Shown: piece after piece, positions 2,531 to 40,895 of the stretch | Position numbering within the stretch: the stretch's first letter is position 1 | Layout of the letters: every line of letters starts with the position of its first letter | Assembly: GCA_020975725.1 (NCBI GenBank) | Contig: QXJR01000029.1 | Span: forward strand, 1-64,000 | Length of the DNA: 64,000 nt | Direction: 5' to 3' | DNA from: Picocystis sp. L7 | Lineage: Eukaryota > Chlorophyta > Picocystophyceae > Picocystales > Picocystaceae | The notes under the pieces: generated by a model | What the model was told of the DNA's origin: nothing | Seen by the model: the letters and a program-made list of their open reading frames with translations, nothing else | The model's database searches: none | Translations under genes and position numbers: made by a program

Positions 2531-3005
2531 CTCTTCTGCCCAAACCCCCGTCCCCGGTCCTCCCCTTGAAACCCAGACGCTCGAAGGGCTTGGTGTTCGT
2601 CAAAAACTTCGCAAAACACATGCACCCAAGATTATATACCCTCGTTCATAGACGGTTGCAGTCCAAGAGATTTAGAGCTAGACAATATGCGACTACATCG
2701 GCGTCCACTTGAATGATGTCTGAACATGGAGAAATGCTCACTGACTAGGGACGCAGAATAGAGACAACCATCCTGACACCTTAAAGATGGGGCCGCGTTA
2801 ATAGCAGTGCCGATGAAGACAGTGTCAGCGAAATGCGACCCACCTTAACACAAGAGTTATCGTTGCAGTATTTCCCTACAAAACTTTCAAAAGATTGCAA
2901 GCCAGGATTTGAATAACACTCAAGACGCGAAGTTAAATGGCAAAGCACTAGTAGGAGAAATTCAAAGGTACCCGCACTTGGATGACACACAATCACGGGT
3001 GGCGC
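2531..3005. other. No gene seen
   Basis: Between the SET-like ORF and the 26-bp array I see no coding frame, RNA gene or repeat that I can support. Confidence 0.5.
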
Positions 3006-3950: not shown

Positions 3951-4476
3951 GGGCGCGTGGTTTCGTGGATAACCAAAGGAATGGAAGGAAAGCGCTTTTC
4001 GGTTTGTTTTCGGGGAGAAGGTTTGTGATCGATATTTCTTCAGGAGAAGAGGTTGGGTGTGTGGAGGCCCGTGGTGGTTTAGACGTCTACAAGTTGGGTG
4101 GCTCCAATAATCCTAATGGAGTAGAAGGCGTAGATTGAGGGAAGCCATGCCAATGCCTTCATTAAAGCTGTGGGCATAGTGGTAGCGTAAACGTTTCTCT
4201 CGAGCCATTGGGTTCATTTGGAGAGCGTTGTAGTCTTGCAACGGATGTTTGGCGAAGCAGAAGCACCCCAACGTTTTTTGATTGCATGGGGTTTGATGGG
4301 TCACAACCCGTGGATATCTCTTCTCAATGCTTTATTGCGCGGAGCATCTGTGGAGCAACCCCTACACATCCGAATAACGGCTGTAAAACCCTTATGCGAT
4401 AGATTCGTGAACATGGCCGATCCATCATGCAGCAAGAGGAAGCTTGCTTTGCGAACACGTTATCTCCCCTTGCCTC
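3951..4476. other. No gene seen
   Basis: Short open frames only; nothing recognisable lies between the 26-bp and 184-bp arrays. Confidence 0.5.
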
Positions 4477-5067
4477 CCTTCGTCGGTCCAGGTGCAAGAT
4501 GTCGACGACCCATCAGCAGGGTGTCCATTTCGTCGTTTCGACTCGGATGGCGCTGAATTTTCGCGTGCGTCCCTCTCGGACCCATCCAACGAAGGTGGCA
4601 TGGTCAAGTTGTCCCGTTCGCATCGCTTTCGATACCGACTCGAGGTCCCTCCTGGTCCTGCCTTCGTCGGTCCAGGTGCGGGATGTCGACGACCCACCAG
4701 CAGGGTGACCATTTCGTCGTTTCGACTCGGATGGCGCTGAATTTTCGCGTGCGTCCCTCTTGGACCCATCCAACCAAGGTGGCAGGGTCAAGTTGTCCCG
4801 TTCGCATCGCTTTCGATACCGACTCGAGGTCCCTCCTGGTCCTGCCTTCGTCGGTCCAGGTGCAAGATGTCGACGACCCACCAGCAGGGTGACCATTTCG
4901 TCGTTTCGACTTGGATGGCGCTGAATTTTCGCGTGCATCCCTCTATGACCCATCCAAGGAAGGTGGCATGTTCAAGTTGTCCCGTTGCGATCGCTTTCGA
5001 TACCGACTCGAGGTCCCTCCTGGTCCTCCCTTCGTCGGTCCCGGTGCGGGAAGTCGACGACCCACCT
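4477..5067. repeat. 184-bp tandem array, three units plus a partial
   Basis: Units begin with CCTTCGTCGGTCC at 4477, 4661, 4845 and 5029, exactly 184 bp apart. The last is cut short near 5067. Units differ by scattered substitutions, such as GGTGCAAGATG against GGTGCGGGATG. 184 is not a multiple of 3, so the open frames across it are not conserved coding sequence. Confidence 0.93.
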
Positions 5068-9100: not shown

Positions 9101-9652
9101 CCTTTGTTGTGACCCAGAAGGGTCTAGCCACCGAAGCTCTGATTCTCCTAAACGTTCGGGTAAGCTTGTGTGGACAGGATCGGGGATCTTGGGTATACTG
9201 ACAGCTCCACGTTTACATCTCAGCGTGGAGCTATGATTTCCACGAGCTGCGAGAGTGTGGGTCCCATGAACATTCGTATAAAGTTCAAACGTGGGAGGGG
9301 CTCTTGACTCCACACCATCATGGAACGCATCCATGAAGGCGTTCAAGGTGAAGAGGCCCTTGACGCTGTCCACGTCGACACTCAAGTGCAGCTGACCACC
9401 ATCGATGCTGCGGCCCTCTAAGCGTGGCATTTTAGGGAGAGATGAACGTACATCGTTGTCGAGCTCTTCATTGAGAAGCCCCACTAGACTCTCGAAGCTC
9501 TGCTGATTGCCGTCAAAGACCGGGTGAAATATGGCACTCCAGTCCACATCCTCGCCAGAAACTGTACGATTCTCAGGTTCCTCTGTAAGAACTTCGTCGC
9601 CCGACTCTCCACTCTGGTCTTCAAGACAACTGCTGCTATCATTGGGTAACAT
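6110..9652 (-). CDS. Large intronless orphan protein, 1,180 residues
   Basis: A single uninterrupted frame of 1,180 codons from an ATG at 9652 (the frame is open back to 9661 at a GTG). The first 100 residues are acidic and Ser-rich (EDQSGESGDEVLTEEPEN). Residues from about 200 on are globular, rich in Trp, His and Leu, with strongly helical stretches. Near residue 230 is a basic Lys/Arg/Ala stretch (GILSKAKTMAEGKARQALNA). The C-terminal 150 residues include a basic cluster (KINSAKKRQKRG) that could be a nuclear signal. No transmembrane segments, signal peptide or catalytic motif is recognisable, and I cannot name a family. Its length and normal composition argue strongly for a real or recently real gene. 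The subtelomeric position and lack of introns would suit a transposon-borne, virus-derived or fast-evolving species-specific gene. Confidence 0.7.
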   Translation of the reverse strand: MLPNDSSSCLEDQSGESGDEVLTEEPENRTVSGEDVDWSAIFHPVFDGNQQSFESLVGLLNEELDNDVRSSLPKMPRLEGRSIDGGQLHLSVDVDSVKGLFTLNAFMDAFHDGVESRAPPTFELYTNVHGTHTLAARGNHSSTLRCKRGAVSIPKIPDPVHTSLPERLGESELRWLDPSGSQQRWTSLAELKHVQLAHVRAGHVNARLWWIFPNMPAKTRHSSAEKASKQPRLDGIQKQRVQGILSKAKTMAEGKARQALNAISSASGEETEILADLEATNYLAFETCTAIMKWQRSGESLTLCLKRVYKELTDAFIPAHPLPHHSTEHTARLSVGAFHALLVSMPIAIALLDEEHAGAQLGYTLLYFDALGIKAQTAQFVDGRSIPTDAIRIVRDALPKLEEASNHCCRVDMALEWQSSSSPETALFWSGGCIPKVLSKLPRNLKTRARIYPQFGILNAVNIQAHNLYWIPGPPNRHTFAVPPGGGVTFLGKHVPAREIQEDTLEETSTLPPEVNLLNMYCPGPKRTSSTFNTWGMSFSSMTPYLAIHHLVPGLETATAELHKVYLEALQVKIQFLQHIHSCMEPWSMRLEIGSLSPECSFQSLVTLRHQLGLDSHETFLTTPEHIRPIEFPLDLIKEYIVKHIGLWWREIEQSVTAQSLCEDGFLRACWAEQALQSCNFVLRGQPVWDYNTCVVFLRVASREGYFRPRSIFEEAHEICRNDGHRISKMVQQVLKIHCRVWERDTLLRLFSEFDWMKEKTSLLRHRPDNERQLIRQMALRLIRNFYSDLHAHMYHKRRWTCTEAPFFLSLLDVRQDPTIPGSNHLREEYGGKESKVHPFRDRGGVEVDAFLRRWFPVHGYGMVKASAPIQYATPHLWCALANSLARGKYMALQKTIGTLACDLRTWHLHERGVEVELRSALPLLVPDALTGQRVFHQLNHWRVVVGTGSYMPVLTPRLHRDQPHTAPPNSPSTAALREERIEKEVRSVQHQAKVHRFTDHETTVFVLFVFLEGGEDLILHNDFSSRLDVQSAYKTEEKQLLYCYRVRRTIRQMYDKINSAKKRQKRGPTTGGFTLARMRTILYTTLGSTPTPEMALTWLRRNQALTLEHFRKAFHGEHGPQLDERNRLLWEHFRSCDSSAAHPCAALLSPFGGVDPTPLHQPPPSTSLDVTLDGVGEGV

Positions 9653-9935
9653 TATGATCACGATTTGAAAGTGAGCTGAAAAAAAAGGGGTCGAAACTAG
9701 CGTGGAAGGAAAGTTAGCTTCTATCTACAGCGCATACTCTTCTTGCTACCTCGAACGCATCCCCCTTTGTCGATAGCTGCGTACCTTTGGTAAGAATGAT
9801 TGGTTAGGGCGTGCACGGCCGTTTTCGAAGGTGCAAGTTTCCAAAGTGGACAATTCTGAGATGCTAGGGTTTCTCCTCTCTCACGCCCATAGATGCAAAG
9901 ACCTGCCACAGTACGGTACCCAGGGGCAGCTGTGC

Positions 9936-10771
9936 TCCCTTGGGGAGCCTCTGTCCCCTGGGGGCAGCCGTGTTCCCTCGGGGGCAGTTGTGTCCTTTGG
10001 GGGTCGACCCTGTCCCCTGGGGGCAGCCGTGTCCTCTGGGGGCAGCCGTGTTCCCTGGGGGCAGCCGTGTACCTTGGGGGCACCTGTGTTCCCTGGGGGT
10101 CGACCCTGTCCCCTGGGGGCAGCCGTGTACCCTGGGGGCAGCCGTGTTCCCTGGGGGCAACTGTGTCCCCTGGGGGCACTTGTGTTCCCTGGGGGTCGAT
10201 CCTGTCCCCTGGGGGCAGTCGTGTTCCCTGGGGGCAGTTGTGTCCTTTGGGGGTCGACCCTGTCCCCTGGGGGCAGCCGTGTACCCTGGGGGCAGCCGTG
10301 TTCCCTGGGGGCAACTGTGTCCCCTGGGGGCAGTTGTGCTCCCCGGGGGCAGCTGTGTCCTTTGGGGGTCGACCCTGTCCCCTGGGGGCAGCCGTGTTCC
10401 CTGGGGGCAGCTGTGTTCCCTGGGGGCAGCCGTGTTCCCTGGGGGCAGCCGTGTCCTCTGGGGGTCGATCCTGTCCCCTGGGGGCAGTCGTGTTCCCTGG
10501 GGGCAGTTGTGTCCTTTGGGGGTCGACCCTGTCCCCTGGGGGCAGCCGTGTTCCCTGGGGGCAGCCGGGTACCCTGGGGGCAGTCGGGTCCCCTGGGGGC
10601 AGCCGTGTACCTTGGGGGCACCTGTGTTCCCTGGGGGCAGCTGTGTCCTTTGGGGCTCGACCATGTTCCCTGGGGGCAACCGTGTCCCTGTGGGGTCGAC
10701 CCTGTCCCCTGGGGGCAGCCGTGTCCTCTGGGGGCAGCCGTGTTCCCTGGGGGCAGTCGTGTCCCGTGGGG
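9936..10771. repeat. 19/20-bp minisatellite, about 43 copies
   Basis: Units of the form CTGGGGGCAGCCGTGTTCC (19 bp) and CTGGGGGTCGACCCTGTCCC (20 bp) alternate irregularly. Third-type units read CTGGGGGCACCTGTGTTCC. Because 19 and 20 are mixed, no frame is maintained, although all frames happen to be open. The long Pro/Gly-rich open frames over it (up to 334 codons) are therefore artefacts. Confidence 0.94.
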
Positions 10772-11140
10772 ACTTTCTGATTTTCTGAAAAGGATCGAGA
10801 GTTGTCCTCAATACCAGGGCTCTCCCAAAGGCTAGAGCCGAAAGATCTCCTCGGGCTGGTCGTGGAATGGGAAGATCTACTATACCGCCCCTTGTAGATA
10901 GCAGAGATGTGCGTTGAGAGTAAACAGGAAGAATAGGGACCAGCCAGATTCTAAACCAGGTACATGCATCGGAAGCGGCACTTTCCGTGGATCACTCCTT
11001 CAACCATCTTGTCTAACCACGTCTCATATTTGTGGTATACGTTGAATTACTCTCTTGTTAATGTAACTCAACCGCCCTTCCCCGAAGGCTCGATCATGCA
11101 CAGACTGGTCGTGAATGTCTAGCAGGCCCACGTGACAATC
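10772..11140. other. No gene seen
   Basis: This is a spacer between two tandem arrays with no supported feature. Confidence 0.5.
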
Positions 11141-11920
11141 GCCTCGGTCCCTTGGCCGCTGGGAGGTCGTCCACCCGGAGGACCCTTTCCAATTGCGTCG
11201 TTTCGAGGAGAATGGATCCGAAACTCGGCAGACAGGCCTTTCGAAGCCTCCGGAGACAGGTGGAGGCCTCGTCCCGACCCTTCCTCCCATTCCGAGGCCG
11301 CGAAGGGACCTCCTGCTGCCCGACGACGCCTCGGTCCCTTGGCCGCTGGGAGGTCGTCCACCCGGAGGACCCCTTCCAATTGCGTCGTTTCGAGGAGAAT
11401 GGATCCGAAACTCGGCAGACAGGCCTTTCGAAGCCTCCGGAGACAGGTGGAGGCCTCGTCCCGACCCTTCCTTCCATTCCGAGGCCGCGAAGGGACCTCC
11501 TGTTGCCCGACGACGCCTCGGTCCCTTGGCCGCTGGGAGGTCGTCCACCCGGAGGACCCCTTCCAATTGCGTCGTTTCGAGGAGAATGGATCCGAAACTC
11601 GGCAGACAGGCCTTTCGAAGCCTCCGGAGACAGGTGGAGGCCTCGTCCCGACCCTTCCTCCCATTCCGAGGCCGCGAAGGGACCTCCTGTTGCCCGACGA
11701 CGCCTCGGTCCCTTGGCCGCTGGGAGGTCGTCCACCCGGAGGTCCCCTTCCAATTGCGTCGTTTCGAGGAGAATGGATCCGAAACTCGGCAGACAGGCCT
11801 TTCGAAGCCTCCGGAGACAGGTGGAGGCCTCGTCCCGACCCTTCCTTCCATTCCGAGGCCGCGAAGGGACCTCCTGCTGCCCGACGACGCCTCGGTCCCT
11901 TGGCCGCTGGGAGGTCGCGC
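11141..11920. repeat. 187-bp tandem array, four units plus a partial
   Basis: Units begin with GCCTCGGTCCCTTGG at 11141, 11328, 11515, 11702 and 11889, exactly 187 bp apart; the fifth is cut at about 11920. Units are nearly identical (TCCTCCCATT against TCCTTCCATT, one GGTCC for GGACC). All six frames are open, but 187 is not a multiple of 3, so the frame shifts between units and no protein is implied. Confidence 0.94.
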
Positions 11921-12639
11921 AGGAGGGAGAGGGTAGACAACGCTGAAAACCCTGGCAGTCAGGCGTCGGGATGATTGCGTCTTGGATCCTTTATCGTTCG
12001 TAGATTCAGGCATCGTGGGCGCCTAGAAGACTCGTCGGAGTGATTTTGGACGAATTGGTCGTGCGTCCGAAGGGGTCGGGGTTGTTCCGACAGCTCGTTC
12101 GCACAGTACCCGAGGGGTTCACGAAAGTAGGAATGCCCCCCCTTTTCTCTCTGTCTTCGTCTCATTCGCGCTCCTGAATACCCCCTTTGGTTCCTTCATC
12201 GTGATTGGTCCGAAGTCGGATGTCGTCCTCGGCGGGCATGGATACTTGCTCGGGATGTCCAATGGCAAATCTGCTACCCAAGGCATTTCCTTTACAGTCC
12301 CCGCTGAGTCGCCCCAAGTATCGGGATTCCTTGCTTCTGAACCCAAATCGAGGGACAGAGCTTGGGAGGACCGCGAACTTTTGCAGCCGAACAGGGGACG
12401 GGAATCCCGGGTCTTAGTGTCGGAATTACACATTCTTACCGTACCGAGTTTCGGGGGCTTCGATACGGCTCCTCTCAAACACGAGGAAGGTGTCCCGTGG
12501 GGGCAGTTTTGTCCCGTGGGGGCAGACCCCAATTCGACCCCTAATCCCTGTTTCGGCACGGGCATTTTGGGGTACCCATGAGTGAGTACCGTGCCATGTA
12601 CCATCTCCACTTGGACAATTAGAACATGCATTGACACGG
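11921..12639. other. No gene seen; two stray minisatellite units inside
   Basis: I see no supported coding frame. The stretch contains the orphan repeat units described separately at 12490-12528. Confidence 0.5.
12490..12528. repeat. Two orphan units of the 19/20-bp minisatellite
   Basis: GTCCCGTGGGGGCAGTTTT is followed directly by GTCCCGTGGGGGCAGACCC. Both match the 9936-10771 minisatellite unit, about 1.7 kb away from that array and beyond the 187-bp array. Confidence 0.75.
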
Positions 12640-12935
12640 CACTTGGAGCAGCAGCAGCAGCAGTGGTGGATGGATGGACTTGCTGGAGCAGCAGCAGCAG
12701 CAGTGGTGGATGGATGGACTTGCTGGAGCAGCAGGAGCAGCAACGGTGGATGGATGGACTTACTGGAGCTGCTGGAGCTGCTTGAGCAGCAGGGGTGGAT
12801 GGATGGATGGAGTTGCAGCAGCAGTAGCAGCAGTGGATGGATGGATGGATGGATAGAGCTGCAGCAGCAGCAGCAGCAAGAGTAGATGGATGGAGCTGCT
12901 GGAACAACAGCAGTGGCAAGAGTGGATGGATTGTG
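12640..12935. repeat. CAG / GGATGGAT compound satellite
   Basis: Blocks of (AGC)n alternate with GTGGATGGATGGA, with several higher-order units of about 48 bp (TGGATGGATGGACTTGCTGG + AGCAGCAGCAGC). It is a microsatellite-rich tract. The Gln/Trp-Met-Asp or Ser/Pro-rich translations are low complexity and are not called as genes. Confidence 0.88.
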
Positions 12936-17086: not shown

Positions 17087-18430
17087 TCAAGCAGAAGCAC
17101 AGAATTTTCCCCAACTAGGCTGCTGAGCTGCTTGACCTTCGAAACCAGAACCATTGTCAAACTTAAATGGCTCACTATGAATCTTTTCCACACACCATCC
17201 TGATATGTCTTGGTTAAAGCTTAGAGCTATATCGAACATTCTGAACATATTTTTCACTTGGCTGGTGTTCCAGTTGCCGATGTCTTGGTTGAAGCCAAAG
17301 GCCAAAGTAAACATGCGACTCATGGAGGTCACTTGACTGGTGTCCCAATTGCCAATGTCTTGGTTGAAGTGTGTGGTTTCTTCAAACATGCTTGTCATGT
17401 CGGTCACTTGGCTGGTGTCCCAGCTGCCGATGTCTTGGTCAAAATCCTTGCTATGACGAAAAAACTCTTCCATGTTCGTGATCCCGCTCGTGCAACTACG
17501 ACGAATTCGCTCGTCACTCGGGTCCTCAGAGATGAGGGCAGTCAATTCCTCCCAATTGCGTTTGGTGTATTCTGTGCCGTGTACGAATCCACTTGATCCT
17601 ACAGCCGCTTCTGGGCACATGACCGTGACTCCGTTCGGAGCAAGGTAGAACAGCGAATTCAGTGGCTTCGGAAACGCTGAATTGGGACCTGCTCCATCCA
17701 GGTAGGTCGACGTCACTGTCGAGGTGATGCTGTCCCCTGGACCCGATTCCAACTTGCGCCCTTCCTTCGCGGTCCCGTTGGAAAGGAGGAAGCCAGATCG
17801 GGCCAACAGATCGCCCACCGAGTCTGTGAAGGAATACCCCTGCGCCGTGAGCGTGACCCCACCCACTTGACTGAACACGATGCTCAATTTCTTCTGCTCC
17901 CCTTCCTGGTACCGCAAGTAGCCTGCCACGTCAAAGCTGGCATGACTGCCCGTCACTGAGCGAAAGCTGAGTCGTTCTGCTTGTTGCAAAACTGCGTCCT
18001 CCAGGTCCAGGTTGAGGGGATAGTCGTGGCTGGCGATCCCCGTGTGCACGAGCTGTCCGTTCCCTTTGTCGGTCAGCATGACCGTTCCGTCATCGGAGCT
18101 GGTTTCGGTGTCCTTCACTTTCACCAGGAGCGCCCACACCGTCCCCACGATGGCGGCCACCTGGATCAGCGCAAAGACGCACAGGGCCAGGATGACCTTC
18201 ATGGCGATCCCGTACTGTCGCTTGGATTCCCGGTACATCCGCACGCTTTCGACGATTTCGGAGACGGACAGGGTCCCGCTCTGATCCACGTCCAGCACCT
18301 CCAGTTCTTCCGCCAGTGACGCGGGGAGATCCGCCATCCGGATGGACCGCACGTGTTTGCGGTTCTTCTTGTCCGCGGCATCTCCCTCCACGTCCGCATC
18401 TGGCTCCAGCTTGTCGGTGCCATCTTGCAT
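17087..18430 (-). CDS. Type II membrane protein: EF-hand, TM, DUF285 ectodomain
   Basis: 447 residues from an ATG at 18430; the frame is open upstream only from a TTG. Residues 1-40 are cytosolic and charged. Residues 47-58 form a canonical EF-hand loop (DVDQSGTLSVSE: Asp1, Asp3, Ser5, Thr7, Ser9, Glu12). One membrane helix spans about 74-104 (VILALCVFALIQVAAIVGTV). The outside part has a beta-type domain, then a conserved Cys module (YLAPNGVTVMCPEAAVGSSG to SCTSGITNM), then three DUF285 repeats (FNQDIGNWDTSQVTSM type) and a closing FNQDISGWCVEKI plus WGKFC. DUF285 repeats occur in BspA-like surface proteins of bacteria and protists. The inferred role is a surface protein with a calcium-sensing cytosolic foot. 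The same foot and anchor occur in the gene at 31682-34264, and the ectodomain module in those at 25724 and 37343. It is divergent from a Harbinger relic. Confidence 0.85.
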   Translation of the reverse strand: MQDGTDKLEPDADVEGDAADKKNRKHVRSIRMADLPASLAEELEVLDVDQSGTLSVSEIVESVRMYRESKRQYGIAMKVILALCVFALIQVAAIVGTVWALLVKVKDTETSSDDGTVMLTDKGNGQLVHTGIASHDYPLNLDLEDAVLQQAERLSFRSVTGSHASFDVAGYLRYQEGEQKKLSIVFSQVGGVTLTAQGYSFTDSVGDLLARSGFLLSNGTAKEGRKLESGPGDSITSTVTSTYLDGAGPNSAFPKPLNSLFYLAPNGVTVMCPEAAVGSSGFVHGTEYTKRNWEELTALISEDPSDERIRRSCTSGITNMEEFFRHSKDFDQDIGSWDTSQVTDMTSMFEETTHFNQDIGNWDTSQVTSMSRMFTLAFGFNQDIGNWNTSQVKNMFRMFDIALSFNQDISGWCVEKIHSEPFKFDNGSGFEGQAAQQPSWGKFCASA

Positions 18431-18637
18431 CCTCCTGCTTGGTTCACCTTCGCTACGACGAGGATCGGTGGGATCCCTGCACACGTGTGATCGTCCCACC
18501 TTCGTCTGTTCCTTACTGCCCGGTTCCAGGTTGGGGTCATTCGTTTCGGTCGATGGGCTGAGCAAGAAGGATCGATTGCTCAGCGAGGAAAGAGTTCCTA
18601 CAACGGGGGACGGGAGCGTCCCGAGAGGAGTTTAGAG

Positions 18638-23639: not shown

Positions 23640-24090
23640 AGTGGGACAAATAATGCTTGGATACCCGAGACATGTACCAATCATGGACCGGAATTACAAT
23701 GGGCAAGTTTAATATTGATTCTAGAGTTGACCAATCGCGCCGGAAGCCCTATGGGTTTTTGGACGTGATCTTTGCATGGCGAGAGGACCAAGGCAACTCC
23801 AGCAATGGCCTCCCAATCCACTCATCATAGTGCGCGTTCACGTTCCAACAACTGGTTTTTGCAAAGAATGGCCTTGTGGAGCCCATAAGGAAGTGTGGTG
23901 CTCCGCCTGGTACGCTTCCGTACAAGAGAGTATAAACCATCATTTGGTGCCACCCGTCGAGTACCTCGACCAAGAAAAGGTGGGCCACCAAGAAAACGGC
24001 GAACCGTGTAGTTTCCGAACTCGAGCCCGTCGAGAACGTGGTCTCAAACCGGCGCGGACAAGGTGCCCATGGAAGTGGGTCTGTTCATAG
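23640..24090 (+). pseudogene. piggyBac relic (5' leader and N-terminus)
   Basis: From about 23655 (ATGCTTGGATACCCGAGACA) the DNA follows the 5' leader of the piggyBac gene at 43187-45538 (minus strand ATGCCTGAATACCCAAGACA) through ACCAATCATGG and TTTTTGGACGTGATC into the start codon near 23776. The frame MARGPRQLQQWPPNPLIIVR then VHVPTTGFCKEW matches MAPRRKQRQQRPPNPLIGAR then VRIPATEFGFEW of the intact copy. Similarity fades after the first 60 codons. It is a 5' fragment of an older insertion of the same family. Confidence 0.8.
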
Positions 24091-25723: not shown

Positions 25724-26845
25724 TCACAACTCAGATGAAGGCTCAATATTGTATGGGGTGTCTCTAATGTGGATGGCTGCCACTAATTTGATAATCGGAT
25801 GAAGGATGCGGGCAAAGTGTCGTGCTCCAAGCATTCGGTAAACGCTTCGGATGGATCCAAACAAAGTTTGATAGCCTGCAGCACAAGGCACATTCATCCT
25901 TTCCAGCATGTGGTCAAGGATCCAGCTTGAATGCGAAGAGACCAAAATCCCATCAACCACGAGCAATCCAGACAAAGTGTACGGACTGTACAAACCTGTT
26001 GCATACTCTGCATCTACACTGGAAACATACTCCCAAACCATACTCCCATTTCCTGCCAATACCTTCACTTTGTCGCCGATTTTTACCTTCTTGCTTTCCT
26101 TCAAAGCAGTTGGTGCCACCCCTTTCTTAGCTTGGGTTGGTATCCAATGATCTGGACTCAAAAGCACACACTTTTGAGACTTTGTGCATATTTTCATGAA
26201 AACAGCCACTCTTCCCAATTCTCCATGGGGTATCATGTACACGTCTTCGTATACAAGAGAACCGCCCCTGGCTTCCACCAAAATTTTGTCACCGACTTGA
26301 AGTTCAGTCATTGGCACAGCTCCTATCGTGTCTTTTATAACAATGGATGTTTGGGGGAAGCAAAAGTAGGCGGTTGGACATGTGCCCCATACCGGTGATC
26401 CAAACACAATTGCGAAGGATGTTGCCCCTTCCTTGAATTTTGTGGGTTCTTCGTCAATCAGTGTTACACACCATATGGAAAGGTCCTGGTTGAAGGTGCT
26501 TGCATTCTGAAACATGGCGGTCATGTCCGTGACAAGGCTTGTGTCCCAGCTGCCGATATCCTGGTTGAATGTTGCTTGACCCTGGAAAAGGGAGGACATG
26601 TTTGTGATCCCTGACGTGCAGGTTCGTTGGATCTCTTGGTCATGCGGATTGGCGTGAATGAGAGCAAGTAGACCCAATCTATCTCTTTTCGTATACAGCA
26701 CTCCGTCGACCTCGCCGGAGCTACCTACCTCTGCCATGGGACACTCGATGGTGACGTTGTTGGATGTAGACAGGTAGAACAGCTCGGGTTCAGTTCCTGC
26801 GAGCACGCCGCACACTAAGACGATACACAACATAGCTGACAACAT
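25724..26845 (-). CDS. Secreted DUF285 protein with C-terminal Hedgehog-type Hint domain
   Basis: 373 residues from an ATG at 26845, chosen because it begins with a signal peptide (MLSAMLCIVLVCGVLAG); in-frame ATGs further upstream exist. Residues 22-85 are the Cys module shared with two other genes here (FYLSTSNNVTIECPMAEVG to CTSGITNM). Two DUF285 repeats follow (FNQDIGSWDTSLVTDM, FNQDLSIWCVTL). From Cys162 a Hint domain begins: CFPQTSIVI, MTELQVGDKILVE, SPDH at 230-233 (the TxxH position, with His), KIGDKVKV, and GLYSPYTLSGLLVVDGILVS. This is the Hedgehog/Hog class of self-splicing Hint domains, which cleave before the Cys and in Hedgehog attach a sterol. The inferred outcome is autocleavage releasing or lipid-tagging the DUF285 part. 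Gly before the Cys is replaced by Phe, so activity is not assured. Confidence 0.82.
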   Translation of the reverse strand: MLSAMLCIVLVCGVLAGTEPELFYLSTSNNVTIECPMAEVGSSGEVDGVLYTKRDRLGLLALIHANPHDQEIQRTCTSGITNMSSLFQGQATFNQDIGSWDTSLVTDMTAMFQNASTFNQDLSIWCVTLIDEEPTKFKEGATSFAIVFGSPVWGTCPTAYFCFPQTSIVIKDTIGAVPMTELQVGDKILVEARGGSLVYEDVYMIPHGELGRVAVFMKICTKSQKCVLLSPDHWIPTQAKKGVAPTALKESKKVKIGDKVKVLAGNGSMVWEYVSSVDAEYATGLYSPYTLSGLLVVDGILVSSHSSWILDHMLERMNVPCAAGYQTLFGSIRSVYRMLGARHFARILHPIIKLVAAIHIRDTPYNIEPSSEL

Positions 26846-28342: not shown

Positions 28343-30715
28343 TCAACGAGGTAAATTCTTGAAGCTCAATCCTAGATTCCAAAATGGTTGGACTCCGTCA
28401 TGGGGATGGAGGTTTGGCTTTATGCTGTACATTTCTTCCTCTGCATATGTTTCAGTATTCGAAAAGTCTGGTATGCGTACCAACCAACGAAGTACTTCAA
28501 AACGTTCTACATCAAAAGATCCACGATCTGGGTATGGCCAGTTTAAGGCTTGCTTGAAATGAAGTTGGACTGCTTTTTGGATACTGGAGCCTTCAAAGTT
28601 CTTAACCTGCCAAATTGGCGCCCCAAACTTGTGGGCAAGAACAGCCATGTGTACCCAACCCAATAGGTTGAAGTTTGTGTAGTGCCTGGAAGTTGGCCGT
28701 ACCAACTCCTCTGGCTGTTCACCCTTTGGCGTGAAATGAAACGGAATCCTGGTTTGGGCACGTGCAATAGCTTCTAGGAGAGATGTCCTCTCTTCCAAGT
28801 AGGCAGCAATGGAGGCAGTCTGCAAGTCAAAATAGATGCCATGATTGTTCGCAGCAACCATTTCCTTTCTTCCGAGTTCTGACTTTAATAACCACTTCTG
28901 GTACTTCCTCAACCATGACTTGAAGTGTGATGCGTTCTTCTTGTCCAAAGCTTTAGAGCGCTCCAGCAGTCTTGCAGCGTCCAGAAAATAGTACAAATCT
29001 TTCATCTCGATGATGCCACTACTAGATGCACGGTTGGTGTACTGAGCATACTGCAAATGTGGGTTCATTCTTGTTCCTGCACGAACAAAGAACGTCTTCA
29101 GGAGTAGCGCACCATGATCAGCAAACGTACGATTCCCAGTGAAAAACCAGGCCAGAGCGCAGATAGTGGTATCGACGAACATTCGTTGCAGGGAGGACCG
29201 ATCGTATGCGGCGGATTCCAGAGAATACAGCACAGCAGCCGGGTGGCGTTGACCATCCTTGCGTACGAAATACGTCTCATTCTTCTCGTTGACTTGAGGC
29301 CAATAGTAAGGAGGAACATGGAAGTAGTCATGCTGGTCTCCGCTAGGGGCAACTAGTTTTTTGTACATGACAGAAAAGGGTCCCCTATTCACGGCTTTGT
29401 TGGCCTCTGACAAAAGAAGTCTAAGAATTCTTTGCAGCAATACAGGAGTTCCTCTTTGGAATGCCAGTAATTGTTGCTGAAGCACGCTTAGATCATAGAA
29501 CACCGGGTCAGAGAAAGTTCGCTGCTGCAAGTGTAGGTCGACATCCATCAGAAATTTAATAGTCCCCTCTGCCCTAGCCCGCCAGCGCTCAATTGAAGCT
29601 CCCTCGCCAACTTCCAGGCTGGCATGACCCGAAGGCAATCTACTAACCCATCCAGCATTCACATCTCGCCTAGCATTAGCATCCCTATCAATCGCTGTTG
29701 TTTGCCTAGGACAACTGAGACCAAGCTTTCTTGCGTCCCCTCCCCAAGAAAGCCAGCGTCCGGGAGATTGCAGTCGCTGGAGCAACTCGGCCTTGGGTAT
29801 GTGACCATATGGGTACGACTCGTCGAAAATTTGCTCGCTGCTTGCATGAAAGGCAATTTGGGGCTCCTCTGTAGCGTTGACCTTGCGTAGTATTCGTGGA
29901 TGCACATTCGGATACGTGGTCAAACGTACCATAGGGACTGTTACGTACTTTGCCTCAGTTGACAGCAGCGTCTGGTACAAATCATCCCACCCAGAGGATT
30001 CCAGGAAGCAGTTGCCATCCCATGGAAGTGTCCATTCTGCATCCTGCTTGCCTTTCTCCAATGCTACGTTCCGTGCACCATTGTTGTTCATGATGTAGAG
30101 ATTTTTGCGATAGAACAGCTGTAGACGGGCCCTCAATCTATCAGTGTTGCTAAGGTTGTAGTAGCCATCGCTTAGAAAGTAAAGAGGATCGGGGAAACAC
30201 CATGTTTCGTGTGGAATCTGCCGGTACTCGCTGGCTTTAAACTCAATCCTGCTATACCTCATGCCTTTCTGTTCAAGCATCGCCATGATGTGATTTTCCA
30301 AGGTAGCGTTTAGGATCCTATTTAATACGAAACGCTTCTCACAGTTCTTGAAAGCCTCTTCATGTTGTAGCATATAGACTAGGTTTTTCCACGTCTGGCC
30401 AACATGATGCCGTCCCGGGATGTCATTGCCAAGAATACGATACATCACGATACTTGTTGAAGGACGTTTGGAATGACAGCCGTACATTTTCTTTTTCTGA
30501 GCAGAAGCATGGTTGGTAGGCGTTTGTCTGGCCGTTTGCTGGGAGTATCCCGCACTCCATCTCTGCACAAACAGGATTTGCAAGACGATCAAGATTGCGA
30601 GGAGGAGGACACATGAAATCAACTTCAGCGTTCCCATGTGCGTGCTTCTAGTTCTGGCTGCCCTCTCCAGTCCCCTCCAAAAGCATTCTGCACAGGTCTC
30701 CGTTTTCATCCGCAT
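28343..30715 (-). CDS. Type II membrane glycosyltransferase-like / alginate-lyase-family fusion
   Basis: 790 residues from an ATG at 30715. A short cytosolic tail is followed by a membrane anchor at about 30-50 (LISCVLLLAILIVLQILFV), the layout of Golgi type II enzymes. Residues 85-315 resemble an algal glycosyltransferase-like domain: MYRILGNDIPGRHHVGQT, FVLNRILNATLENHI, AEWTLPWDGNCFLESSGWDD. Residues 445-730 match the alginate-lyase family (PF05426): HDYFHVPPYYWP at 462-473, CALAWFFTGNRTFADHGALL, TRMNPHLQYAQY at 548-559, SGIIEMKDLYYFLDAARLL, and the active-site NNHG at 623-626. Family enzymes cleave uronate-containing polysaccharides by beta-elimination. The fusion may build and trim an acidic wall glycan; substrate and reaction are unknown. 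It is intronless and divergent from the EF-hand gene at 31682. Confidence 0.83.
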   Translation of the reverse strand: MRMKTETCAECFWRGLERAARTRSTHMGTLKLISCVLLLAILIVLQILFVQRWSAGYSQQTARQTPTNHASAQKKKMYGCHSKRPSTSIVMYRILGNDIPGRHHVGQTWKNLVYMLQHEEAFKNCEKRFVLNRILNATLENHIMAMLEQKGMRYSRIEFKASEYRQIPHETWCFPDPLYFLSDGYYNLSNTDRLRARLQLFYRKNLYIMNNNGARNVALEKGKQDAEWTLPWDGNCFLESSGWDDLYQTLLSTEAKYVTVPMVRLTTYPNVHPRILRKVNATEEPQIAFHASSEQIFDESYPYGHIPKAELLQRLQSPGRWLSWGGDARKLGLSCPRQTTAIDRDANARRDVNAGWVSRLPSGHASLEVGEGASIERWRARAEGTIKFLMDVDLHLQQRTFSDPVFYDLSVLQQQLLAFQRGTPVLLQRILRLLLSEANKAVNRGPFSVMYKKLVAPSGDQHDYFHVPPYYWPQVNEKNETYFVRKDGQRHPAAVLYSLESAAYDRSSLQRMFVDTTICALAWFFTGNRTFADHGALLLKTFFVRAGTRMNPHLQYAQYTNRASSSGIIEMKDLYYFLDAARLLERSKALDKKNASHFKSWLRKYQKWLLKSELGRKEMVAANNHGIYFDLQTASIAAYLEERTSLLEAIARAQTRIPFHFTPKGEQPEELVRPTSRHYTNFNLLGWVHMAVLAHKFGAPIWQVKNFEGSSIQKAVQLHFKQALNWPYPDRGSFDVERFEVLRWLVRIPDFSNTETYAEEEMYSIKPNLHPHDGVQPFWNLGLSFKNLPR

Positions 30716-31681
30716 TCCTTTGTCCACGCGCAAGGATACGCTGCCGCAGTTGGAAACCGATCCGTTCTCCTCCTTCCGAGGGACCTATTCGCTGTCGAAC
30801 GATGTTGTCGACATTGGCCGGCAACCCATCTTCTGCGCCGTTCACTCTCGCGATGGCAACCAGACCTGGAGAGGTCGACCCCAACATTCTATGGCGATGG
30901 GACACCATTTCTTGGTGTCGATTTCGGATGGAACCATCGTGCGATGGAGAATGGTTCAGATCGACGGTGGAGGATTCGTGTATTCTGCTCTGCTGGATGT
31001 GGGGTTTTCCCCTGGACCGAGCTAGGCGAGGATGGGACCAATGTTGACCGACCCGTCCCTTACCGATGAGGATCTGCAGGGTCCACCGACCCTCCCCCCG
31101 GGAGGAACCCAGGGGTTGGATCGGGGCGGATCTGCTTGTCGATCGACGTACCAAGGTCCTGGATCCTGCAGCACACTCCACCGCCTTTGGATGTGGAATC
31201 GTGGGCACCCGTAGAGGAAATCGGGGTCGCCCCAATTACTCGCAGGATTGTGCGATGGGTCTTGGGAGATCGGACGATTGCGAAGCAACGGAAAGGAGGC
31301 GATAGGGGTCCACGGACCTCGTGGTTGGGTGGACATCATCCCGTGCCTCAGCAAAAACGTGACAAAGATCATCCAGCTCGCAACAGAGAGTGCACGGTCT
31401 GCTTGCAACACACGATCGCTGCCCTGTGTGTCCTTGGACGAAGGTACGGACCACCCCTCGGATCCGTTTGAAGGCACCTGCATCCGACCAACTTATCCGT
31501 CCTTCAGCATCGAAAAGGCAGCTGCATCCCTACAACGCCAGGGTAGACCACGAGAAGCGATTTGCACGACCCTGCTGGAACAGATATCGTGACAGCACAA
31601 CGTAGAAGACCCTCTTTCCTTGCCTGGCAACAACAAGTCGCAGCAAAGTAGAAGTGCCTCACGGTGAACGGGCCATTGAAC
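30716..31681. other. Divergent intergenic region
   Basis: A 966-base spacer between two divergent genes (lyase fusion and large EF-hand protein), presumably holding both promoters. Long open frames on both strands overlap each other and show no motif. Confidence 0.55.
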
Positions 31682-34264
31682 ATGGACTTGGAAGAGGGAG
31701 AAGACGGCTCAGGAAAGCCATCCAAGTGGATGAATCCCGATGCAGCGGTAAGAAAAGGGGAACGCACGATCGCCCTCGACGAACTCCCCACTGGTCTTGC
31801 AAATGAACTACGAGTACTGGATGAAGATGGAAACGGGGTTTTGTCCTTGGATGAGATACAGGAGGGAGTAAAACGTCTAAGGTCTGCAAAAGAGCAGCTT
31901 GGCTTGGCCAAGAAAATCATCATCTTCCTTGCCATTCTTACCTTGGTACAAATCAGTGCCATAGTAGGGGTTGTGTATGCCCTTCTGGTCTCATTGAAAG
32001 ACACTGATGTCGACAGCCACCACCAGCTTGTGGTGAAGGGGACGAACGTACCGGTGACCGTGGCAAACCCGGACATTAGAGTTGGCACGACTAACTATAC
32101 ATCTGCCTTCCCTGAATCTATGGGCAATGCGAGGATCCTGCTGGAAGAGCATTCCCAGCTTGTGGATGCTCAAGGCAGTCCCATTGCCACAGCGACTTTG
32201 GTGGGGGAAAATGGCCACGTCCTGACCCCACAAGGACAGGATGCCTCCATTGCTACAGTCAAGTATTACGCATCAGCAAGCGAGATAGGGGGGTTCGAAG
32301 CTTTGTTCAATTGGACTGCAGAAGAGCTAGGTGCTTTAGAAATGTTGGTGCTTGTTGTAGACAATTCGACCATTTCCCTTGCAGTTCAAGCGATTGATTT
32401 CAAAAGGATTGAGGTCGATAATTCGCTAGAAATGGAGGCTCCTGTGGAAGATGATCTTGGCGATGATGTTAACTCTACCTTCGAAGCGCTCTTGATTACA
32501 GTCGAACATTATCAATATAAGATGCTCTTTCTCCTGCGAGTTTATGAAACAGACAACCCGGATAACATGGAGCACTTCATGTGGGCACTAGACGATATCA
32601 CGGAGGCCTTGGATTTTATAATCATGCTAGAAGCAATAAAGGACGGAGGAGTCATTGCACCAGACGAGATATCTGAACCAAGCCATACTCCCCAGCGCAG
32701 GGTAATGTGCTCGGTGACGAATATAAAAAAGTGCTTCAGAAAAATAAAAGATCTGCAGAACAAAGTCAGTAGGCTTGAGGGAGACATCAAAAATATTCAA
32801 AGCAACTATAATTCTGCCATGTCCTCCCTGCGAAGCTTTGCGGACATATCCAGACGAGCGGGGCAGAGCCTGGCAGGGAGCATTGCCAACTTGCAAAGCA
32901 TACGGGGAACGATCCAGCAGGTGCCCAATCTGATTGAGAATATCCTTTTGGCATTCGAGTGGGTGCCTGCCCAATGCAGTCCGATTTTGATTGCGCTGGA
33001 ACAGATCATCCTGAACGGGGTGGGCAAGCAGTGCATACCATACGGAAGCATTTTCCCGGATGCGTTTGGCTCCTCCATCACAATCTACGAAAAGCCCAAT
33101 GTCTTCAAGATGGAGGCAAGCCTCCAACCCACCACCTGCTTTGAGCTGGTGGAGTTCAAGCCCAAGTGTCCAGGGATCCAGACCCTTCTGACAGATATGA
33201 ACGCTATTGTGCGGGCGGCCATCAAAGATGCGTTTGTGGTCTTGAGGGGCGAAATCCAAAACATGTTGAACCTCGATGTGATTCGACCGCTGGACAATGT
33301 GATCAGTTCCTTGAGAAGCATCCAAGATTTGCTGTCGCAAATCTCCACCAGGAGGCGCCTGGGTGCAAGGCTGACTTCCGAGTCGCCGACGCAGAGCGAG
33401 GTGTGGCTCTCACAGGTGTACGAGCACTGCCATTCGCACGTGGAACGAGAAATACACAGGCGGCTGGAGTATGCGGCCAAACAACGCCAGTTGTTCACAT
33501 CAACATCGTTTACGTTTGATGCATTGCGCATAAAAGTGGAAACCAGGATGAGCGCGTCGCTCTCCTTTGAAGGGTTTCAGGAGAACTTCTACAGCGTGGA
33601 CCTGCTGCGGGAGCTTGGGGGTGGCGCACTCCCTTTTGTGACACAGAGCTCCATCCCCCTGTACCCGGCACTTTCTCTGGCCATCGCAACCTCCTTTGAT
33701 GTGCGGCTTCTGTTCCAGACGTACATGTCCGCTTCTGCGCAGGGCATGGGTGCGGTATCCACTGGTGGCCTCACCTTTGACGTGGACCTGGCCAAGCGAG
33801 TGGCCACGGTGAGCCGAGGGGATCCATCGCGGGACTTGAACCTGGATGGCACCGCCCGCACTTCTGTATCCCTGGGGATTGACTTTCAACCCACGGCCAG
33901 CATTGGGCTCTGCGTGGGTTTGGGGGCTGCTGCTTGTTTGACCACGGAGATCCTTGCTGGTGTGGGTGGGGCCATTGGCGGAGACCAGATCATGGCTGCC
34001 TCCGTGGGTGCTCCACAAGGGACCGTGAAGTTGAGTACCTTCTTCACCCCCGATGTTTCCTACGAGGAAGAAAACGGGTCTTGCGTTCTGGGAGCGAATG
34101 CCTTCCTGGCCGCGGGGGGCGCTTGGGCGCACTTCCCTCCACCGTTTGCAAGGGCCAAGCTGAAAGCGCCTGGACTCAACGACGACCTCTTTCAATGGGA
34201 ACACAGCTCCCCCCTTGTGTCCACGGTGCTGTTTCAGCAGTGCTCTCAAGATGCCTTGACCTGA
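31682..34264 (+). CDS. Large type II membrane protein: EF-hand foot, TM, coiled-coil ectodomain
   Basis: 860 residues from the first ATG at 31682 (an upstream GTG is in frame). A canonical EF-hand loop DEDGNGVLSLDE sits at residues 47-58, the same place as in the protein at 17087-18430. A membrane helix follows at 78-103 (IIIFLAILTLVQISAIVGVV). The flanks also match that protein: DELPTGLANELRVLDEDG against ADLPASLAEELEVLDVDQ, and ALLVSLKDTD against ALLVKVKDTE. The ectodomain of about 750 residues is different: a coiled coil around 355-420 (IKDLQNKVSRLEGDIKNIQS), several paired Cys, and a Gly-rich beta-type C-terminus (SIGLCVGLGAAACLTTEILA). No DUF285 repeats are present. The family is unrecognised. 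Inferred role: a surface adhesion or scaffold protein with calcium sensing on the cytosolic side. Confidence 0.82.
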   Translation: MDLEEGEDGSGKPSKWMNPDAAVRKGERTIALDELPTGLANELRVLDEDGNGVLSLDEIQEGVKRLRSAKEQLGLAKKIIIFLAILTLVQISAIVGVVYALLVSLKDTDVDSHHQLVVKGTNVPVTVANPDIRVGTTNYTSAFPESMGNARILLEEHSQLVDAQGSPIATATLVGENGHVLTPQGQDASIATVKYYASASEIGGFEALFNWTAEELGALEMLVLVVDNSTISLAVQAIDFKRIEVDNSLEMEAPVEDDLGDDVNSTFEALLITVEHYQYKMLFLLRVYETDNPDNMEHFMWALDDITEALDFIIMLEAIKDGGVIAPDEISEPSHTPQRRVMCSVTNIKKCFRKIKDLQNKVSRLEGDIKNIQSNYNSAMSSLRSFADISRRAGQSLAGSIANLQSIRGTIQQVPNLIENILLAFEWVPAQCSPILIALEQIILNGVGKQCIPYGSIFPDAFGSSITIYEKPNVFKMEASLQPTTCFELVEFKPKCPGIQTLLTDMNAIVRAAIKDAFVVLRGEIQNMLNLDVIRPLDNVISSLRSIQDLLSQISTRRRLGARLTSESPTQSEVWLSQVYEHCHSHVEREIHRRLEYAAKQRQLFTSTSFTFDALRIKVETRMSASLSFEGFQENFYSVDLLRELGGGALPFVTQSSIPLYPALSLAIATSFDVRLLFQTYMSASAQGMGAVSTGGLTFDVDLAKRVATVSRGDPSRDLNLDGTARTSVSLGIDFQPTASIGLCVGLGAAACLTTEILAGVGGAIGGDQIMAASVGAPQGTVKLSTFFTPDVSYEEENGSCVLGANAFLAAGGAWAHFPPPFARAKLKAPGLNDDLFQWEHSSPLVSTVLFQQCSQDALT

Positions 34265-37342: not shown

Positions 37343-38572
37343 TTAGCAAGGTGCACCCCAAGTAGGACGGGAGAGAGTCCATGCATCAGCTCCCACATCA
37401 AAATTAGCTGGCGAGGGTTCAATTTGTTCCACGCACCAGTTTGATAGATCTTGGTTAAAGGTGACAGCCTGACGAAACATGGAATCCATGTCGCTCACAT
37501 TGCTGGTGTCCCAGTTTCCAATGTCTTGATTGAAACTGTTGGCATTTGAGAACATAGATGCCATGTCCAATACCTTGCTGGTTTCCCAGATTGTGATGTC
37601 TTGGTTGAAAGCCGTTGCATTGGAGAACATGAATCTCATGTCTGTCACTTGGCTGGTGTTCCAGCTCCAAATGGATTGATTGAACTTACTTGCAAATCGA
37701 AACATTGACCGCAAACTTTTCACTTGGCTAGTGTTCCATGCACCGATGGCTTGGTTGAAGTTGCTGCTGTCTCCAAACATGCCTGCCATGCCCACCACAT
37801 TGCCGGTATTCCAATTCCCAATCTCAGCATTAAAAGCGGATGCCGAAAAAAACATTCCACTCATGTCAGTGACTTGCCCCGTATCCCAGGTTCCAATTGC
37901 TTGATTAAAACTGCTAGCGCCGCTGAACATTCGTTCCATGCTAGTCACTCTACTGGTAGACCAACCCCCTATTTGCTGATTAAAACTACTTGCACCATTA
38001 AACATGAGTTCCATATTGACAACTTGATGGGTGTTCCAGTCCCCAATGGCCTGGTTGAACTTCGCGGCAGACTGAAACATGCCCTTCATGCTGGCCACTT
38101 GGCTGGTATTCCAACTACCAATGTCCCGGTCAAAAGCACTGGCACTTTGAAGCATGTAATCCATGTTCGTCACGCTGCTAGTGTCCCAGCCGCCGATGTC
38201 TTGATTGAAGTTGTTGCTTGCCCCCACGTTGGATTCCGTATCCATCATTTGGATACTTCTTGAGCGCCTAAACTTGGAGATCGAGGTACCGTCAAACAAA
38301 CCACTGAAATCCACGATTCCCGAAGTGCAGGAGAGCCTGATTTGAGGATCGCTTGAATTTTGTTGGATCAAACTTAACAAGGTCTCTCGATTATGCTTGG
38401 TGTAAGTTCTTCCATTGACACTACCTTTGTCTCCTACTTCGGCGTCTGGACAGAGTACCGTCACTCCATTTTCAGCCAGGTAGAATTGAGTCGGAAGAAT
38501 GCCGGCACATGCCTTTGGCAAAGCTGCGACCATTAAGAACAAGCAAGACAAAACCGAGCCTGAATACTCCAT
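37343..38572 (-). CDS. Secreted DUF285-repeat protein
   Basis: 409 residues from an ATG at 38572, which starts a signal peptide (MEYSGSVLSCLFLMVAALP plus KACAG); another ATG lies 14 codons upstream. After the signal comes the shared Cys module (FYLAENGVTVLCPDAEVG to SCTSGIVDF), then about ten DUF285 repeats of 23 residues of the type FNQAIGTWDTGQVTDMSGMF, closing with FNQDLSNWCVEQI and PTWGAPC. The repeats pack as a solenoid in BspA-like proteins, which are adhesive or surface-exposed in the species studied. A 23-residue Arg/Ser/Met insertion (centred on KFRRSRSIQMMD) lies between the Cys module and the first repeat, with no GT-AG intron that keeps the frame. There is no membrane anchor or Hint domain, so it is probably released or wall-bound. 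Confidence 0.86.
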   Translation of the reverse strand: MEYSGSVLSCLFLMVAALPKACAGILPTQFYLAENGVTVLCPDAEVGDKGSVNGRTYTKHNRETLLSLIQQNSSDPQIRLSCTSGIVDFSGLFDGTSISKFRRSRSIQMMDTESNVGASNNFNQDIGGWDTSSVTNMDYMLQSASAFDRDIGSWNTSQVASMKGMFQSAAKFNQAIGDWNTHQVVNMELMFNGASSFNQQIGGWSTSRVTSMERMFSGASSFNQAIGTWDTGQVTDMSGMFFSASAFNAEIGNWNTGNVVGMAGMFGDSSNFNQAIGAWNTSQVKSLRSMFRFASKFNQSIWSWNTSQVTDMRFMFSNATAFNQDITIWETSKVLDMASMFSNANSFNQDIGNWDTSNVSDMDSMFRQAVTFNQDLSNWCVEQIEPSPANFDVGADAWTLSRPTWGAPC

Positions 38573-40895
38573 GCTACAATGAATCAAGTGTTGGGGATGT
38601 CGCGGCGCGAACATCCAGTGCTAGGCCAGACTCTTTTCACTAGAAATTTTCAGTGAGATCTTTAGACAGTCCCAATGCTTGACTCGTCGCCTGGTGCAAC
38701 CGGCCCTGTGGATTTCTCTGTTTCGCTTCCTGAGCCGTGTGAATCTCCTCTTTTTGTCATCCGCACTTGTCCGAATGGTCTCTCGCTCTTCGTTGATCGG
38801 CTTATACGAACAAGTAACGCTTGTATCTTACTTTCGGCGATGTCGCCTTCCCAAGACCTGCGCTTTCGCTCGACCAGGCACTGGCGAGTGTGCAAAGTGC
38901 GCCCAGCGGATCCTCTCCTGTCCGTGGCACTGGAAGCAATTCACCCCTCTTCGTCCTGACCCCAGCCCGTCACCCCTGTATTGTCCCTGGGTTTGCCTTC
39001 CCGACTTCCATTCGGATTGGACGGTTGTGGAATGCTGAGTGATCGAATGCCAGCCCAAACACCTGTCCTTCTGGCTTGGAAACAACACGGTCATGGTGGT
39101 GGATCCACTCCAACCCGTTCGATGTTGGTCTCCATCTCCATCTTAATACCGAATCGGTAGGTGAGGGGATAGAATGGATACAACCGCAATTCAAAGAGAT
39201 GATCCTGGATGGGTGAAGGATAGATTATGAATAATGATACACGTCCCTCGCAGTTGCTTGGACTTCCTTGGGCATGAAAGAAGGCGTGGGTGGTCATCAT
39301 GCATCCATGTGTCGTAGATCCGTGCATTCCACAACCGCGACATGGAGAGTAGGATGCCAGGGCATCATTCATGGGCAGCATCCAAGCATGTTTACATGTG
39401 CGCGCTACGGTCACTATGGGATGGGATGAAGCCACCATTGTACATTTCGAACGCCCCCTGTAGGACGCCTAGGATCGGTAGGTATGACTTGCCCTGTACG
39501 TGGCTTCCCTTGTCTCAAAGTGCCTTCCTCATGCAACTTCCATATGAACGCTGGGCTCGGATATTTCCTGGCCAACTACTGGATGGGTCTGCCGCCAGTG
39601 GAAATATCCATACTCGGGTCTATCCATACTCACACAAAAAGGAAACGGGTAAGGCGGATAGTATCATGCACACCTGCTTCAGTGCTGCTTTTTGGCCCCA
39701 TAGAGACACGCCGGTCTTGCATACTGGACTCTGGTACAGATGGTTGAAATGAGGAGGCGAAGGAAGAGCAGTGTAAAAGAACGCTGGGGTGTGCACAATT
39801 CCAAGTGTGCATGATTCCAATATGAGTGTGTGAAGAAAAGGGTAAACCATAGTACACCTCCTGTCAGCCTGGCGCAGATTGAAATATCACCGACGGTGGT
39901 ATTTGGAAGAGCCTGAGACAACAAGTAAAGCGGCAACTTCGGAAGCAATGACAGAGATGGACCGATCTGAACGAGCATCTCAATTGAGCTCAACCAACAA
40001 TCAAACTTGCAACAACATGCAGCTGTGAAAAAAGTTGTTTCAATGATGGATCCCTTTAATTATTTTGTGCATGTCCACTGCTGCTGGTATTCTTGGCCGT
40101 AGGCAAACTTAAAGCAAGCCTCCAACAAACGCATTCCTGCTGTCTTCAAAGAATTTGCGTAGGATGGCAAGCCCCAGGTATGTCCTTCCCATGTTCAAGA
40201 TGAGGAAGCAGGAAGCAAGCGAACACTCACTATCCGAGGTTGCTTCTCTTTTGCCATCATTGCTTAAAGAAGAAGAATATACCTCGTAGTCCCAGACTTT
40301 CGGGTGTCCACGACCTTACTTTGCAGCACATATTGAAGCTGCCGCTTTGCCCTTCTGTCGGTGAGAAAGGAGGCCTGCACGTCAGTCGCATGCGTCTTCC
40401 CGAAGTGTGCCCATAGATATAACATAGGACGAACCAACCCTGTGTGACTGTTCATCGCACGGAATGGACTCTTGTCTTGTCAGTTTGCCATGCTGTGCCC
40501 CGCGCGAGTAAAGGGTGCTGGGTTAGTCTGCAGCAAACTTCAGGATAGGTACAAAGTTATTTCATCCACAGATACATCCAATGAAGCAGTTGCCGACCCG
40601 GCACCTTTGTGTAAACAATTAACCTAAGAATATTGCCAAGAGCAGTAGTGATGCGGAGCAGGCTGACCTTGCTCCCTCCTGTGGTGCAAGGCAGCTCTCT
40701 TTAAAGACTTTGGCATGCAAATTGAGAGATACTGCTCCATATCTTTAGAAGTTGCAAGAACAGGTTGGCACTGACTGGGCAAGCATTTCATCCTCATTAT
40801 TGCAGATAAGCAAACAAATGTATCCGCTGCGAATGGGCCAAGATTTTCACTTTTGAGGAGAACCAACTGGTTGCAAAGAAGCTAAGGCTCACAAA
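38573..40895. other. No gene seen
   Basis: 2.3 kb with only short overlapping frames on both strands (up to 136 codons) and no recognisable protein. It includes the promoter side of the DUF285 gene. Confidence 0.45.

Follow-up and report, generated by a model that had tools for sequence, protein, structure and literature searches.

A gene on the minus strand of the window, the 64,000-nucleotide stretch of DNA from Picocystis sp. L7 analysed here (contig QXJR01000029.1, positions 1 to 64,000), encodes a DUF285 ectodomain fused to a Hint domain of the Hog class. This architecture had been proposed from a sequence-only reading and is borne out by profile matches to both PF01079 and DUF285, with the nucleophile and the active-site His present. 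The evidence as a whole is best explained by a secreted DUF285 protein that cuts itself and probably links its ectodomain to a sterol by an ester bond, a reading that we consider probable. The parts of the gene and its two relatives in the window are listed in the table.

Table. The DUF285-Hint gene, its parts and the DUF285 paralogues of the window (window positions)
Feature	Position	Strand	Basis or detail
DUF285-Hint fusion gene	25724..26845	(-)	single open frame, 373 aa + stop, ATG at 26845
Signal-peptide-like hydrophobic start, residues 1-17	26795..26845	(-)	hydropathy; putative cleavage at about V14-L15-A16-G17
Ectodomain, four-Cys module + DUF285/PARCEL repeats, ending ...PVWGTCPTAY	26366..26794	(-)	Pfam 69-144, sequence
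Predicted scissile junction Phe161/Cys162 (Cys162 = Hedgehog Cys258)	26360..26365	(-)	alignments
Hint module, residues 162-305; His207, Ser230, His233, Ser304	25931..26362	(-)	Pfam, alignments, variant scoring
Tail, residues 306-373, candidate adduct recognition region without profile match	25727..25930	(-)	hydrophobic moment, Pfam
DUF285 paralogue without Hint, ends ...PSWGKFCASA	17087..18565	(-)	Pfam, sequence
DUF285-array paralogue without Hint, same Cys module, ends ...PTWGAPC	37343..38614	(-)	Pfam, sequence

The coordinates in the sequence-only reading were correct; the strand had been left out. Five further in-frame ATGs are found 5' of the ATG at 26845, and the first in-frame upstream stop is at 27202; the start codon of the Hint gene is therefore not fixed. 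Residues 1-15 have a mean Kyte-Doolittle hydropathy of 2.78, which fits a signal peptide. The signal peptide claimed earlier thus stands as far as this hydropathy goes, for a start codon that is not fixed. A scan around the gene for bacterial-type promoters and terminators gave chance-level results and is not meaningful in this setting. GC3 was considered as a mark of late fusion and rejected. It is 95/160 in codons 1-160 and 97/213 in codons 161-373 (Fisher p 0.009), but the drop starts near codon 121 rather than 161 (77/120 up to codon 120 and 115/253 after; p 0.0009, for a split picked post hoc). Nine other genes in the window span 0.51-0.69, and GC3 was not counted as evidence.

Pfam PF01079 matches residues 159-319 at 78.6 bits (E 6.7e-22, cut-off 29.7), and DUF285 matches residues 69-144 at 71.2 bits (E 7.8e-20, cut-off 25). 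With such E-values the two matches are not due to chance, and the first is the Hint/Hog profile by which the original proposal was to be checked. Nothing beyond these two families was matched when the whole protein was compared with Pfam at E <= 1. The N-terminal Hedge (signalling) domain is therefore missing from the matches, and assignment to Hedgehog proper fails on that account. PF01079 is the sole Hint-type Pfam model that matches, be it with the whole protein at E <= 1 or with the Hint part at E <= 10, where two unrelated families gave weak and short matches besides (0.09 and 0.19). When PDB sequences are searched with the whole protein, four distinct ones match at E <= 1, and each is a Hedgehog (best E 2e-6). 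With the Hint part there are seven at E <= 10: four Hedgehog sequences lead (best E 6.8e-7), followed by a bacterial intein-like domain (E 0.54) and two unrelated proteins. The closest solved sequence is 6TYY. AlphaFold2 run from single sequences gave unusable models (pLDDT 33.1 for the whole protein, 32.6 for the Hint part). By profile and nucleophile, the protein is firmly a member of the Hog/Hint family, and it departs from the usual letters at three sites.

The peptides quoted in the sequence-only reading are all present and rightly numbered, namely FCFPQTSIVI (F161-C162), VGDKILVE, SPDH at 230-233 and YSPYTLSGLLVVDGILVS. Alignment with fly Hedgehog is ungapped from Cys162 through Hint position 72 (phmmer and MAFFT agree) and pairs C162 with C258, H207 with D303, S230 with T326 and H233 with H329. 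In Hedgehog, Cys258 is reported to form the thioester, with T326 and H329 aiding the N-S shift, while D303 acts as the general base activating cholesterol and also restrains early cleavage (PMC9163320, PMC4695875). Since the nucleophile at the first Hint position and the active-site His of the TxxH motif are both in place, self-cleavage is the likely default, and we would expect it with good confidence. The Thr of TxxH is conservatively changed to Ser230, and the motif J Cys to Ser304, which falls on fly C400 in two alignments. Where Hedgehog proper has Asp303 and Gly(-1), the protein has His207 and Phe161; the substitution of Phe for the usual Gly before Cys162 had been pointed out from the start. 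Some inteins tolerate Phe at -1.

The residue bearing most directly on lipid transfer is the His at Hint position 46, the position of Asp303, which went unnoticed in the sequence-only reading. Human SHH, a weaker match (E 0.0029), likewise sets its Asp against H207, and nematode Hog proteins often have His at this position. Nine single-residue variants were scored against PF01079, with the protein's own sequence as reference. At position 207, His (the protein's own) scores 80.3 bits and Asp 80.2, while five other residues lie 2.4-3.8 bits lower (Glu 77.9, Asn 77.7, Gln 77.5, Lys 77.2, Ala 76.5). Because the profile scores His and Asp alike, His207 seems to be a variant that the family accepts and not a sign of decay; a Hog-type base (Asp, or His as the profile's alternative) is thus present. 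The remaining variants, Ser230Thr (84.4 bits, a gain of 4.1), Ser304Cys (84.9, a gain of 4.6) and Phe161Gly (82.7, a gain of 2.4), all improve the score, and Ser230, Ser304 and Phe161 therefore depart from the family preference. The 6TYY sequence is that of fly Hedgehog D303H, described as near-identical in structure and similar in activity to its parent, with much better use of coprostanol and epicoprostanol and hence a wider acceptance of sterols; the D303A change spares cleavage by DTT and stops full cholesterol attachment (PMC9163320).

Upstream of the Hint domain, DUF285 appears as a single Pfam stretch, of which the two repeats described earlier are a fair reading; the NCBIfam PARCEL repeat model stays below its cut-off (17.3 vs 30 bits). 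The ectodomain cysteines C35, C76, C126 and C156 recur in both DUF285 paralogues of the window, 18565..17087 and 38614..37343. The Cys module is indeed shared with these genes, and both are devoid of Hint, as had been stated of the related genes nearby. A tblastn search of the window gave no second Hint (next best match E 0.25). The paralogue at 17087..18565 has a weak EF-hand match, below cut-off, and one strongly hydrophobic TM-like segment near residue 124. That at 37343..38614 has a hydrophobic stretch near residue 21 and looks secreted, with no obvious anchor.

The junction between the two domains falls where related proteins end. Both paralogues stop at the last conserved Cys or three residues past it, a cyanophage DUF285 protein ends ...PQWGTCP-stop, and all three share the ending ...WG..C(P). 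Two of the four matching PHROG profiles stop at query residue 157. In the Hint protein, only TAYF separates the cap ...PVWGTCP from Cys162. A similar cap is internal to a very long protein of Vibrio phage vB_pir03, so that the cap marks the end of a domain but not always of a protein. The comparison supports a modular junction, in which Hint would have been joined to the DUF285 ectodomain at its natural end. Cleavage at F161/C162 would free an ectodomain that is complete by the standard of its relatives.

Several other features of the window are worth recording. The proteins encoded at 17087-18565 (-) and 31664-34264 (+) have about 120 N-terminal residues in common (43% identical, E 2e-23), which include a weak EF-hand match and a strongly hydrophobic segment. 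Their outer parts differ: DUF285 in the former, no Pfam match over cut-off in the latter. From this comparison, anchors too seem to be exchanged between surface proteins in the window. The gene adjoining the Hint gene on the same strand, 28343-30733 (-), encodes a protein with a strong match to alginate lyase (PF05426, 2.2e-52, residues 458-729 of 796), preceded by about 450 N-terminal residues without Pfam match. An uninterrupted DDE_Tnp_1_7 transposase frame, presumably of the PiggyBac type, lies at 43187-45538 (-). At 23776-23922 (+), some 1.8 kb from where the Hint gene ends, lies a fragment that is 51% identical to the first 49 residues of this transposase (E 6e-9), a copy that has either decayed or been captured. 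Together with a eukaryotic phosphomannomutase match and ion-channel/ankyrin genes, the transposase points to a eukaryotic nuclear genome. Tandem repeats occupy 1238-1633, 3006-3934 and 4473-5066 (units of 204, 26 and 184 bases) as well as 9923-10771, 11140-11917 and 12644-12873 (units of 19, 187 and 40 bases). The long open frames 2781-3976, 9831-10835 and 11024-12013 lie mostly on these repeats and are probably not genes. An open frame of 1183 residues at 6110-9661 (-) has no Pfam match at E <= 0.01.

We propose that the DUF285 (PARCEL) surface protein would be secreted and that its Hog-type Hint would cut the chain between Phe161 and Cys162. Cys162 would attack the carbonyl before it in an N-to-S acyl shift, assisted by Ser230 and His233. 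The thioester would then be displaced by an alcohol, for which a membrane sterol deprotonated by His207 is the likeliest candidate, the amphipathic tail bringing the Hint module to the membrane. The product would be the DUF285 ectodomain, complete with its four Cys and a short end ...CPTAYF, and would carry an ester-linked lipid anchor. For the transfer of a lipid to the ectodomain we would put the chances at even or slightly better. A more specific version can be offered only tentatively. In it, a native His46 Hog may link the C-terminal Phe of a PARCEL surface repeat protein to an algal sterol, which need not be cholesterol, as a Hedgehog-style anchor with a relaxed, D303H-like choice of sterol. 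Counted against the explanation as a whole are the departures from the usual Hedgehog letters (SxxH, the Ser of motif J and Phe(-1)), the tail without Pfam match and a PF01079 match that ends at profile position 173 of 213.

The tail has two stretches of raised hydrophobic moment, at about 320-341 and 336-362, with values of up to 0.48 near 322-341 and 0.69 at 341-358. No Pfam family was matched at E <= 10 in a search of residues 305-373, and the HPR/HWY residues of human SHH are not evident in the tail by eye. Human SHH is reported to require an amphipathic helix-loop-helix with H374, R381 and the HWY motif, P379 being conserved (PMC7906309, PMC7242414). In nematode Hog proteins, Burglin calls this part the adduct recognition region (PMC2362128), and the tail could be such a region with another specificity.

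It is also conceivable that the Hint cuts itself off by hydrolysis or thiolysis and releases a soluble ectodomain with no lipid. This we consider unlikely, albeit with several observations in its favour: nucleophile and SxxH are present, yet the tail has no profile match and shows, by eye, neither the HPR nor the HWY residues reported from human SHH (PMC7906309, PMC7242414), and the paralogue at 38614..37343 looks secreted and unanchored. What speaks for lipid transfer instead is His207, at the very position where fly D303A loses full cholesterol attachment and keeps DTT cleavage (PMC9163320). A plain self-protease needs neither Asp nor His there, and PF01079 favours both over five others. It must be noted that position 46 is not a clean test of soluble release, as the residue is also said to restrain premature cleavage (PMC9163320, PMC4695875). 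The amphipathic character of the tail also argues against simple release. A catalytically weakened or inactive relic, the protein remaining whole, is improbable. Phe(-1), Ser230 and Ser304 are indeed three departures at active-site or flanking positions, but in two of them Ser stands in for Thr or Cys, and Burglin gives Ser, Thr or Asp in place of the motif J Cys for mosses and red algae (PMC2362128). Moreover, no stop interrupts the frame, and Hint is matched strongly.

Next to no credence can be given to the idea that the domain is an intein or belongs to another Hint class (BIL, Vint) instead of Hog. The Hint fold is common to all of them, and an intein-like domain appears as a weak PDB match; however, no Pfam model of another Hint class was matched by the whole protein at E <= 1 or by the Hint part at E <= 10, and the best structure match is Hedgehog. 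An intein or BIL domain is further contradicted by the lack of a terminal His-Asn and of any Pfam domain after VVDGILVSSH (by eye, the sequence from residue 296 is VVDGILVSSHSS), and a Vint protein by the lack of a Pfam match to the VWA domain at E <= 1. We also find it very hard to believe that the gene model is an artefact, with a frame that is not translated as read owing, for example, to unseen introns or another start. The eukaryotic context and the five upstream in-frame ATGs leave some room for this, but both domains lie in one unbroken frame, each with a strong profile match, and they meet at a natural domain end.

Searches of viral contigs, genome contigs, phages and plasmids gave no relative of the Hint part by which the conservation of H207 or of the fusion could be judged. 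In viral contigs, there were 0 relatives among 1 pattern match for the Hint part and 0 among 62 for the two-row alignment. Nine pattern matches in genome contigs yielded two loci, covering only residues 52-144 and 42-114. The whole protein matched 79 phage records, and the 20 listed ones match the N-terminal/DUF285 part. Among these 20, one, from Vibrio phage vB_pir03, extends to residue 188. It was rejected as a Hint relative, being a DUF285 repeat plus cap with an alignment that overruns the cap; its match to the Hint alone is nil at E <= 10. The Hint part itself had no match at E <= 1 in phages and plasmids. Of 296 genomes of one bacterial phylum, 14 had a PF01079 match at E <= 0.001, six over cut-off, the best at 35.5 bits vs 78.6 for the fusion protein. 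A regular-expression scan for Hint cores was positive for 3 of 12 loci.

The C-terminal domain of Hedgehog (Hint + SRR; fly Hh 1AT0, D303H 6TYY) has the same Hint core, Cys nucleophile, active-site His and spacing over positions 1-72. Unlike Hedgehog, the fusion protein has no Hedge domain, has an unmatched tail, and carries His for Asp303, Ser for Thr326, Ser for Cys400 and Phe for Gly(-1). Hog domains are reported from dinoflagellates, apicomplexans, red algae, mosses, a haptophyte, a cryptophyte, a cercozoan, a jakobid and a Glomus fungus (Burglin 2008, PMC2362128). Like the present protein, several of these have a signal-peptide-like start, a Cys-bearing N-terminus and a C-terminal Hog in which the motif J Cys is often replaced (PMC2362128). 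In contrast to them, its N-terminus is a known repeat family, DUF285; that survey names only GmGIN1 and Hoglet as lower-eukaryote Hogs fused to distinct other domains (Burglin 2008, PMC2362128). The kelch-Hint fusions of cyanidiophyte red algae (PMC9812998) resemble the present gene in architecture: they too are algal and combine Hint with repeats unrelated to it, kelch there and DUF285 here. In Ectocarpus, low expression of one Hint gene is reported from female gametes (PMC3879662), and one diatom is reported to have Hint in >290 genes (PMC12803021).

DUF285/PARCEL proteins, for their part, are described in diatoms, prasinophytes, a giant virus and bacteria (PMC2996958, PMC11992049, PMC10720644), and DUF285 ranks among the top 100 Pfams in marine diatom transcripts (PMC11992049). 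The surface proteins of bacteria, phages, giant viruses and algae have the same repeats and the cap ...WCV...W..C(P). They differ in that no Hint is mentioned in the accessible portions of these papers, 'hint' and 'hedgehog' occurring 0 times in PMC2996958 (PMC2996958, PMC10720644, PMC11992049). No description of a DUF285-Hint fusion was found in the literature searched, of which several listings were available in part, and protein databases may contain this architecture without its having been remarked on. Protists are already known to have Hog domains behind varied N-termini, and DUF285-Hint is a variant on that theme.

The gene offers a compact test of these ideas: a short, secreted-looking ectodomain, sister proteins without Hint, a cleavage point predictable to the residue, and a natural His where an engineered one widens sterol tolerance in fly Hedgehog. 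If the proposal is true, sterol anchoring would be a modular trick that DUF285 proteins can acquire, and an ester-linked lipid anchor would exist in a microalgal surface-protein family in which the sister proteins seem to be either anchored in the membrane or just secreted.
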